Shown piece after piece: positions 48,348 to 54,034 of a stretch of DNA of 64,000 nt. The DNA lies in the NCBI RefSeq assembly GCF_023195885.1, contig NZ_JALPKO010000004.1, positions 62,001-126,000 of the forward strand. Reading direction: 5' to 3'. The translations under genes and the position numbers were made by a program. The notes under the pieces are model-generated. The model searched no databases. It worked only from the letters and a program-made list of their open reading frames with translations, and was not told where the DNA came from. Source of the stretch: Methylonatrum kenyense (lineage in GTDB: Bacteria; Pseudomonadota; Gammaproteobacteria; Nitrococcales; Aquisalimonadaceae). The stretch's first letter is position 1, and the number at the start of each line of letters is the position of its first letter.

Positions 48348-49511
48348 ATGGTTGAACTCTTCTGGCTGCTATTGCCCGTTGCAGCCTTGTCCGGCTGGTG
48401 GATAGGTCGCCGCGGCACGGGGCGACACCGGGCCAACGGCGGGCCGCTGCGGCAGGATTATTTCCAGGGCCTGAACTACCTGTTAAACGAACAGCCCGAC
48501 AAGGCCATCGAGGTGTTCACCCGCATGGTGCAGGTGGACTCCGACACGGTGGAGACTCACCTCGCGCTGGGCAATCTTTTCCGCCGCCGCGGCGAAGTGG
48601 ACCGCGCGATCCGCATTCATCAGAACCTGATCGCTCGCCCGACCCTCAGCCGCGACCAGCGAACCTATGCGCTACTGGCCCTGGGTGAGGATTATCTGCG
48701 GGCCGGACTGCTGGACCGGGCGGAGAGCCTGTTCCAGGAAGTGGTGGACCTGAACGCCCATGTCGAGGCTGCATTGCGCAGCCTGCTGGAGATCTACCAG
48801 CAGGAGAAGGAGTGGGACCGGGCTATCGATGTGGCCGAGCGGCTGGAGGCGCGCACCGGCCAGCTGATGCGCCGGCAGGTCGCCCAGTTTCATTGTGAGT
48901 TGGCGGAGCGGGAACGTGATCGCGGCGAAATCAACAACGCACGGCAATGCCTGCGCCGGGCGTTGAAGGCGGACCCGAACTGCGTCCGTGCCAGTGTCCT
49001 GGTCGGCGAACTGGAACGCAGCCTGGGGAATCATGAGGGCGCGGTGGAGGCCCTGACCCGCATCGTCCAGCAGGACGCGGAGTTCCTGCCGGTGGTGCTT
49101 GATGATCTGGGCGAGAGCTACGCGGTGCTGGATGCGGAAGACCGTTTCCAGCGATTTCTCGCGGCGGTTCCGGAACAGGCCCGTGGTGCCTCGGTCATCC
49201 TGCGACAGACCGAGCTGGTAAGGAAACGCGAGGGTGATGAGGCCGCGCAGCGGTTCCTTGTCGAGACCCTGCGTCGGCACCCGTCGGTGCGCGGCCTGGA
49301 CCAGTTGATCCAGTTCAACCTCAACGCCGATGGTGACGCGGACTCGACAGAACTATCGGTGCTGCACGACCTGTTTTCCCGTTTGCTGCAGGACAAGCCC
49401 ATGTATGCCTGTCACCAGTGCGGTTTTTCCGCGCGGGCCTTGCACTGGCAGTGCCCCGGTTGCCGTTCCTGGGCGAGCATCCGGCCGATCCGGGGCGTGG
49501 AAGGAGAATGA
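48348..49511 (+). CDS. lapB: Lipopolysaccharide assembly protein LapB
   Basis: A 387-residue membrane-anchored TPR protein. One N-terminal helix (about 3-20) is followed by about nine TPR units ([23 protein letters not shown] is the first). It ends in a rubredoxin-like zinc domain with cysteines at YACHQCGF and WQCPGCRSW. It acts with FtsH to control LpxC and LPS synthesis. The stop overlaps the pyrF start region. Confidence 0.95.
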
Positions 49512-50215
49512 TGCACAGGGACGAGACGCGATCGGTGATTATTGTTGCGCTGGATTACGCCACCGCCGACGAGGCCCTGGCGCTGGCCGGCCAGTTGCGG
49601 CCCGCGCAATGCCGGTTGAAGGTTGGCAAGGAACTGTTCTGTCGAGGCGGTCCGGACCTCGTCAGGGAGCTGGTCGACCAGGGTTTCGACGTCTTTCTTG
49701 ACCTGAAATTTCACGATATCCCCAATACCGTCGCCGCAGCCTGTCGGGCCGCTGCCGAGCTGGGCGTCTGGATGCTGAACGTGCATGCCCTGGGTGGACG
49801 CCGGATGATGGAGGCCGCCCGAGAGGCACTGGCGGCACGGCCGACACCGCCGCTGCTGACAGCCGTGACGGTGTTGACCAGTCATACGGCGGAGACCCTG
49901 GCCGAAGTCGGGCTTGTTGCCGATCCGCGGCTGCAGGTGCAGCGGCTGAGTGACCTGGCCCGGGATTGCGGCATGGACGGCGTCGTCTGTTCGGCGCAGG
50001 AGGCCCGGATGTTGCGGGCCGGCTGGGGGACCGATGGCGTGCTGGTGACGCCGGGGATTCGGCCGGCGGAGAGCAGTGCCGACGATCAGAAACGGGTTCT
50101 GACGCCGCAGCAGGCGGTGGCCGCTGGCAGCGACTATCTGGTCATCGGTAGGCCGATCACCCGCGCCGCCGATCCGGCGGCGGCACTGGAGGCGATTCGG
50201 CAGCAACTCGCTTGA
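49511..50215 (+). CDS. pyrF: Orotidine 5'-phosphate decarboxylase
   Basis: A 234-residue barrel enzyme making UMP. Catalytic residues lie in [21 protein letters not shown] and [16 protein letters not shown] (the D-x-K-x-x-D set), and [10 protein letters not shown] is near the phosphate site. The second of two adjacent ATGs is chosen because AAGGAG (49501-49506) lies four bases before it; the first is only one base away. lapB-pyrF is a common order. Confidence 0.95.
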
Positions 50216-50250
50216 TCCATCCGGATGCTGCCTGAAAAGGTCCCGGCCCC

Positions 50251-50335
50251 GTGCCGTGTGAGGACAAGAATTTTCTCCGGACTGACGTACCTTCGGTCCA
50301 ACAGGTCCGGAGAAAATCTTGTCCTCCCCCGGCAC
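50251..50335. repeat. Long imperfect hairpin A
   Basis: Arms 50251-50282 and 50305-50335 pair almost completely, with one bulged base and two or three mismatches. The core is GAGGACAAGA to TCTCCGGAC against GTCCGGAGA to TCTTGTCCTC. The loop is 22 bases (50283-50304) and contains GACGTACCTT and GGTCCAAC. Confidence 0.9.
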
Positions 50336-50420
50336 TACGTGGAGGCCGGCACCCATTGCCAGGACCTTCGATCCGCGGCGTCTCTGCCCCGTTGAAGCAA
50401 CCGCACTGTCAGCCTGGCAG

Positions 50421-50492
50421 GGCCGGTGGACGTTATCGTCTGGCGTCGTTGGACCAAAGGTACGTCGCGCCAGACGATAACGTCCACCGGCC
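50421..50492. repeat. Perfect 25-bp hairpin B
   Basis: Arms 50421-50445 and 50468-50492 are perfect inverted repeats of 25 bases, beginning GGCCGGTGGACG. The arms are unrelated in sequence to those of hairpin A. The loop is again 22 bases (50446-50467), and its reverse complement matches the loop of hairpin A at 18 of 22 positions. Confidence 0.92.
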
Positions 50493-50620: not shown

Positions 50621-50706
50621 TTCATTGGTGCCGCCGGGAACGGATGGCACGGGGCCGCGAAGGAATCGTGGTCTTTTCATGGATGAAATGACAAGGAGTG
50701 TTGCGC

Positions 50707-50973
50707 ATGAACGCGTTTCTGAAGGGGGCCGCACTGGCCTTGGGGATTGTATTTTCAGCCGTCGCCTCGGCCGAGGTGGAAGTCAATATCAATGAAGCAG
50801 ACGCCGACACCCTGGCCTCGCAGCTCACCGGTGTCGGCCAGAGCCGGGCGATGGCGATCATCGAGCATCGCGAGACGCACGGTCCGTTCCAGGCGGTGGA
50901 TGAGCTGACCGCGGTAAGCGGTATCGGCAATTCCACGCTGGATGCAAACAGGGATCGCCTGGCGGTGGATTGA
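50707..50973 (+). CDS. ComEA-like helix-hairpin-helix protein
   Basis: An 88-residue exported protein. A signal peptide (MNAFLKGAALALGIVFSAVASAE) precedes one ComEA-type HhH domain (VNINEADADTLASQLTGVGQSRAMAIIEHRETHGPF and AVSGIGNSTLDANRDRL). Such proteins bind DNA in the periplasm, for example during natural uptake. AAGGAG at 50693-50698 supports the ATG at 50707 over the GTG at 50698. It has its own promoter and a strong hairpin after it. Confidence 0.9.
   Translation: MNAFLKGAALALGIVFSAVASAEVEVNINEADADTLASQLTGVGQSRAMAIIEHRETHGPFQAVDELTAVSGIGNSTLDANRDRLAVD

Positions 50974-53958: not shown

Positions 53959-54034
<76 letters not shown>

Follow-up and report, generated by a model that had tools for sequence, protein, structure and literature searches.

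REP-like repeats shape bacterial intergenic DNA, and how they spread is unsettled. In the working model for REP and BIME elements, single-strand hairpins with conserved irregularities and a foot tetranucleotide are acted on by an HUH transposase in trans (PMC8266576). Published REP stems are 5 to 13 bp long, and most of the repeats are reported to lie where neighboring genes are unidirectional or convergent (PMC3733652). In TIRtrons, inverted repeats with the end motif GGGGWSAS flank Y1 "TIRYT" genes (PMC3733652). We compared these systems with two long hairpins in the genome of Methylonatrum kenyense. The two form one pair of a scattered family that we found in two closely related species only.

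Results

Two hairpins with a shared core downstream of pyrF

The window, meaning the whole stretch of 64,000 nucleotides analyzed here, carries the hairpins between pyrF (orotidine 5′-phosphate decarboxylase; 49418 to 50215, + strand; Pfam PF00215, E 9.7e-65) and a gene for a small helix-hairpin-helix (ComEA-like) protein (50698 to 50973, + strand; Pfam PF12836, E 1.1e-17). A tRNA-Asn gene is also present in the window (53959 to 54034, − strand). A first-pass annotation of this DNA had described hairpin A, with arms of about 31 bp, and hairpin B, with perfect 25-bp arms, and both proved to be real and correctly placed. Hairpin A spans 50251 to 50335; its arms form about 28 pairs and are asymmetric by one base. 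On the + strand, its 5′ arm (50251 to 50282) is followed by the 22-nt core TGACGTACCTTCGGTCCAACAG (50283 to 50304), which divides into TGAC-GTACC-TTC-GGTCC-AACAG and holds an inner mini-hairpin, and then by the 3′ arm (50305 to 50335), where CTTGTCCT stands in place of the CTTCTCCT of most copies and the C.C mismatch of the family is lost. Just outside the 5′ arm, positions 50240 to 50250 (+ strand) carry a CCNGGCCCC-like motif common to A copies, for which the profile of 23 A copies reads CCaGGCCCC before the A foot; this flank is probably the end of the element.

The 85-bp spacer between the hairpins (50336 to 50420, + strand) is partly conserved among copies, with ..GCAGCCTGG[TC]A immediately 5′ of B, and its last four positions (50417 to 50420, + strand) are GCAG, which fits the GYAG motif found next to the B foot. 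Hairpin B spans 50421 to 50492 and is assigned to the − strand, on which its core reads CGACG..CAACGA. It consists of a first arm (50421 to 50445, first on the + strand), the 22-nt core (50446 to 50467; CGACGTACCTTTGGTCCAACGA on the − strand), and a second arm (50468 to 50492) that is a perfect complement of the first (25/25). Its core belongs to a B subtype in which GGCG/CGCC borders surround the CGACG..CAACGA sequence. By direct count, both loops are 22 nt long and loop B, when reverse-complemented, agrees with loop A at 18 of the 22 positions, as had been claimed; alignment gave a 19-nt inverted match at 95%. When the window was dinucleotide-shuffled 40 times, no perfect inverted repeat of at least 14 bp within 60 nt ever appeared, compared with the 25 bp found in the real sequence, which is thus far above chance. 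Hairpin A had a DNA folding z of −8.1.

A family in two sister species

A BLAST search with a 261-bp stretch of the window found many further places in the M. kenyense genome (G000), and its 19-nt core occurs there 23 times when up to 3 mismatches are allowed. A pattern combining the core with its borders gave 26 matches in this genome and 44 in that of a sister species, the metagenome-assembled Ectothiorhodospiraceae bacterium CSBr16_16 (G002); a few of the 2-mismatch matches among these look like chance, and the reversed control pattern matched neither genome. With a covariance model trained on 44 B copies, and with each place counted once, we detected 31 distinct hairpins in M. kenyense and about 60 in the sister species. 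The model found none in the remaining two species of the genus, G001 and G003, and G001 retains half of one B hairpin, interrupted by an insertion. Under stricter filters, which may lose weak matches, a search of 54 genomes of the order gave none beyond M. kenyense and its sister, and a sample of 369 genomes of the class gave only the window's own genome. A viral origin was also considered and rejected, since the four IMG/VR sequences that match the core lack hairpin flanks (8 to 9 of 26 positions paired) and represent chance. A literature search on palindromic repeats in Ectothiorhodospiraceae returned no title or abstract on such a family.

The first-pass annotation had named the absence of other copies and of stem conservation in close relatives as grounds for refuting it. 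The core does recur beyond the window, its flanks there form inverted repeats, and the stems covary, as described below; this is therefore a genuine family and no one-off.

Paired changes and fixed mismatches in the stems

We compared about 70 distinct copies. Each module is an imperfect inverted repeat of 74 to 90 nt, with arms of 26 to 31 bp around a conserved 22-nt core, and nearly all copies have the core TG[AG]CG-NNNN-TNC-NNNN-CAACAG or a close variant of it. The copies fall into two subfamilies with homologous but different stems, A (GTGCCGnGTGAGGACAAGCTTTTTTCCG..) and B (GGGCCAGTGCAAGCTTTCGTCTGGCC..). The two window stems had been called unrelated, which did not hold across the family: A stems (..GGACAAGCTTTTTTCCGGAC) and B stems (..AGTGCAAGCTTTCGTCTGGCC) are diverged versions of one design, and they seem unrelated in the window because its B copy is heavily altered. 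Two further hairpins, at L086 (1453-1526) and L103 (1447-1520), have the family core with largely different outer stems and may represent additional stem subfamilies.

The partly palindromic character that had been noted for the conserved core reflects an inner mini-hairpin seen across copies, with a stem of 4 to 5 bp, covarying pairs (C-G/G-C, A-T/G-C/C-G), and a three-base loop. On the CTGTT..CGTCA strand, the commonest loops are GAA, GGA, and GCA. Loops of this GNA type are known to form very stable DNA mini-hairpins. The DNA folding energy of the core alone did not clearly favor either strand.

The covariation test gave compensatory changes in both subfamilies. In the B stems together with the inner stem, 83% of cells were paired and double changes occurred at 20 pairs; over these 20 pairs (97 cells), the score for compensatory change in the B stem was 0.198, compared to 0.077 for shuffled and at most 0.075 for slid alignments. 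The A stems had 86% of cells paired and double changes at 13 pairs (53 cells), with a score of 0.177 compared to 0.071 after shuffling. Certain irregularities nonetheless stay at fixed positions among the copies and in both species: a C.C mismatch near an AAG/CTT step was kept in 38 of 44 B copies and 20 of 23 A copies, and a second mismatch, C.T or C.C, lies near the B foot in 36 of 44 B copies. In the CTGTT..CGTCA orientation, GYAG immediately precedes the B foot in 30 of 46 copies (GCAG in 18, GTAG in 12), and the B stem begins with GGGACAG in 25 of 46. The foot profile of the 23 A copies contained no GYAG-type motif.

A hairpin with conserved mismatches is also what an attC-like site of the integron type would offer, with single-stranded hairpins serving a tyrosine recombinase. 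The attC motif is GTTRRRY, and the GTTGGAC/GTCCAAC of the core fits it. We give this explanation hardly any credence: the motif lies in the apex and not at the stem base, the modules are inverted rather than direct, and no gene cassettes lie between them.

Inverted pairs between genes

Of the 18 adjacent A/B pairs listed, 17 have their two modules inverted relative to each other, the exception being L041. The distance between cores is mostly about 170 nt (137 to 172) for facing modules and 107 to 108 nt for those lying back to back, and some loci (L005, L088, and L043) contain three modules. By simple gene calls, which are unsure at a few loci, the copies are intergenic. At the 39 loci where both flanking genes were called, the gene pairs were tandem in 19, convergent in 15, and divergent in 5.

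The excess of convergent over divergent contexts (15 versus 5) would suit a structured RNA under selection as such, whether a bidirectional terminator, a stabilizer of mRNA 3′ ends, or a two-hairpin sRNA, and so would the strong covariation and the RNA folding z of −11.5 for the window pair A+B. Several observations speak the other way. In the roughly 70 copies examined, the stems are not followed by a T-run, and G-U pairs are rare in the B stems. The only match in the window at the Rfam gathering score was a tRNA, with none for the hairpins, and sub-threshold matches were mostly to microRNA models. Kissing between the two loops, which the first-pass annotation had raised, found no support, as A and B loops of the same element match no better than chance (distance 5.4, compared to 4.9 for shuffled loops). 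We regard an RNA-level role as quite improbable.

Shared ancestry and the altered window copies

Among 19 M. kenyense loci compared, 14 have a hairpin-bearing counterpart in the sister species, with flanks 76 to 92% identical; because the sister loci were picked for carrying hairpins, empty counterparts are left out of this count. Orthologous B copies differ from each other less than random cross-species pairs do (11.1 versus 14.8 differences, p = 0.005), and much of the family was therefore inherited from the common ancestor. Judged by these sequence comparisons, the family is older than the split of the two species. The A copies also differ species-wide, most reading CCGTCC-TGGCG..GGCCGG in the sister species and CCGGAC-TGACG..GTCCGG in M. 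kenyense, and partial homogenization or a later burst thus appears to have followed.

At one locus (L007), the hairpin is present in M. kenyense and absent from the sister counterpart. Neither a target-site duplication nor a clean empty site was seen at this one locus examined, where the intergenic sequence of the sister species is too diverged to reveal ends or a duplication. Another possibility is that the family consists of MITEs of a classical DDE transposon, with the single hairpin or the A-spacer-B unit cut and pasted via its arm ends. Long inverted arms, units of about 74 to 250 bp, intergenic spread, and conserved end sequences (GGGACAG / GGGCCAG; CCAGGCCCC) all fit such elements. Nevertheless, L007 gave no constant target-site duplication, albeit with diverged flanks in the sister species; the center is conserved in all copies whereas the A and B ends differ; and many modules stand in alternating arrays typical of BIMEs. 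Mobility of the DDE type is in our estimation unlikely.

The window locus itself has no hairpin in G001. In the sister species the locus lacks an A hairpin and carries a B-type one, which shares the loop subtype and shows the usual mismatches. Relative to the family form, window hairpin B has lost its mismatches and gained three matched double changes (A-T to G-C, A-T to C-G, and T-A to A-T), and its core is uninverted. Arm-templated correction by template switching is the simplest account of this pattern. The proposal that the window hairpins are a relic of template switching is thus plausible for these copies, in which the fixed mismatches of the family are lost.

We also considered whether the covariation as a whole could be mutational, with quasi-palindromes rematched by replication template switching and neither function nor selection on the stem. 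Template switching is known to homogenize the arms of inverted repeats (PMC8604942, PMC8794818), window B departs from both the family and its sister orthologue by lost mismatches and matched double changes, and one A copy, at L004, likewise has arms paired at 30 of 30 positions. Unlimited rematching should, however, erase fixed mismatches, and the C.C and other mismatches remain in nearly all copies. The inner mini-stem covaries too, and inversion of the core, the expected companion event, is absent: the orientation of the core relative to the B stem is identical in all aligned copies. We consider a purely mutational origin of the pairing unlikely.

Transposase genes and insertions into the cores

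The sole Y1-type gene of M. kenyense is a RAYT (C29:126334-126666, at L085; NF047646, 188 bits). This gene adjoins an RHS-type coding sequence. Within 1.5 kb of it we found no recognizable REP hairpins and no copies of the family. No Y1 gene was detected in the sister species, which is the richest in copies, and in neither genome is a RAYT or other Y1 gene flanked by family hairpins. A RAYT-linked REPtron within M. kenyense was ruled out, the lone RAYT having no surrounding hairpins. G003 has a Y1 gene similar to REP-associated tyrosine transposases (L084, 1394-2215), with GGGACAGATCTATTT repeats on its flanks that have GGGACAG ends; an adjoining hairpin has 15-bp arms and a 23-nt loop holding a small palindrome of its own. 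The match between the B foot and this transposon end is only 7 nt long (GGGACAG).

A second repeat, a MITE-like element of 270 bp, has the inverted ends GGAAACACTGA..ATTCCC and GGGAAT..TCAGTGTTTCC. Copies lie at L006 (1722-1992; the same as L172), L173, L069/L176, L065/L180, L101, L098, L020, L104, and L047, and in G001 at L033. Ordinary copies have TTAA or CTAG on both sides. The cores of both A and B hairpins are the insertion sites of the most similar subfamily (GAGCAATTCCC). This suggests a target preference for the hairpin apex, or a composite unit that spreads.

Discussion

Taken together, these data lead us to favor, with moderate confidence, the reading that the window pair is a copy of a dispersed, noncoding, nonautonomous palindromic repeat family that works like REP/BIME elements. 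The arrangement, the intergenic placement, and the GYAG on most B copies are the grounds for this likeness. Since no RAYT or Y1 gene is linked to the hairpins and the stems are longer than those of published REPs, we describe the family as working like REPs without classing it among them. Under this REP-like reading, the hairpins would have spread in the common ancestor of both species as single-stranded DNA hairpins, recognized by an HUH transposase (Y1 type, RAYT- or TIRYT-like) acting in trans. This enzyme would have recognized the core and the conserved mismatches together with the B foot (GYAG/GGGACAG), and it would since have become unlinked from the hairpins. Vertical inheritance, partial homogenization within each genome, and erosion by the inserted MITE would then have followed, and replication template switching between the arms most likely erased the mismatches of the window pair, leaving unusually perfect stems.

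A bolder alternative is a new class of mobile single-stranded DNA hairpins that are recognized at the apex (CTGTT-minihairpin-CGTCA) and not at the foot, and moved by a non-RAYT enzyme. We hold this to be quite doubtful. If it were true, the change from GGAC-TGACG to GTCC-TGGCG in most A copies of one species could represent coevolution with the enzyme. Its small size, its restriction to two sister species, its frequent synteny, and its rich covariation make the family a compact natural experiment, one that could distinguish selection on hairpin shape from rematching of arms by template switching and could test the spread of an apex-recognized hairpin without a linked transposase.

The hairpins had been presented as unlike any familiar terminator, REP, or ordinary MITE design. 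As regards REPs that view is too strong, because the inverted pairs, the apical mini-hairpin, and the GYAG foot on B are REP/BIME-like; the stems, though, are more than twice as long as those of REPs. With the REP/BIME elements of the RAYT-associated GTAG superfamily (PMC3733652, PMC8266576) the family shares intergenic palindromes, alternating inverted pairs, and regular spacing. As in some REPs, a self-complementary inner loop lies beyond an internal loop. Conserved stem irregularities are shared as well, as is a location chiefly between genes in tandem or convergent orientation. GYAG at most B feet recalls the GTAG REPs, but GCAG is commoner here than GTAG. Unlike REPs, the family has arms of 26 to 31 bp compared to 5 to 13 bp, A hairpins lacking the tag, no RAYT gene that it flanks, a range of two species only, and a low copy number (30 to 60).

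The TIR repeats of TIRtrons (PMC3733652) are similar in being longer, partly self-complementary inverted repeats of moderate copy number that occur as dimers or clusters, and the GGGACAG start of the B arm resembles the ends beside the Y1 gene of G003. The family departs from TIRtrons in that neither M. kenyense nor its sister has a cognate TIRYT gene and that the motif match is partial (AGGGACAG versus GGGGWSAS). By their description, the MITE-like repeats of enterobacteria (the 127-bp RU-1 and 168-bp RU-2; PMC2759123) are likewise small, mobile, intergenic, and multicopy, but the unit here is a pair of distinct hairpins whose common core is inverted in one relative to the other. CGTC REPs (PMC3733652) are also orphan palindromic repeats with no dedicated transposase, and CGTC is found in the core here; it lies inside the apex and not at the foot, however, and the stems of CGTC REPs are 8 to 9 bp long. 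The literature that we searched contains no such description, and present evidence does not make this a categorically new system; the repeat family is long-stemmed, limited to one lineage, and akin to REP/BIME elements or to TIR repeats.
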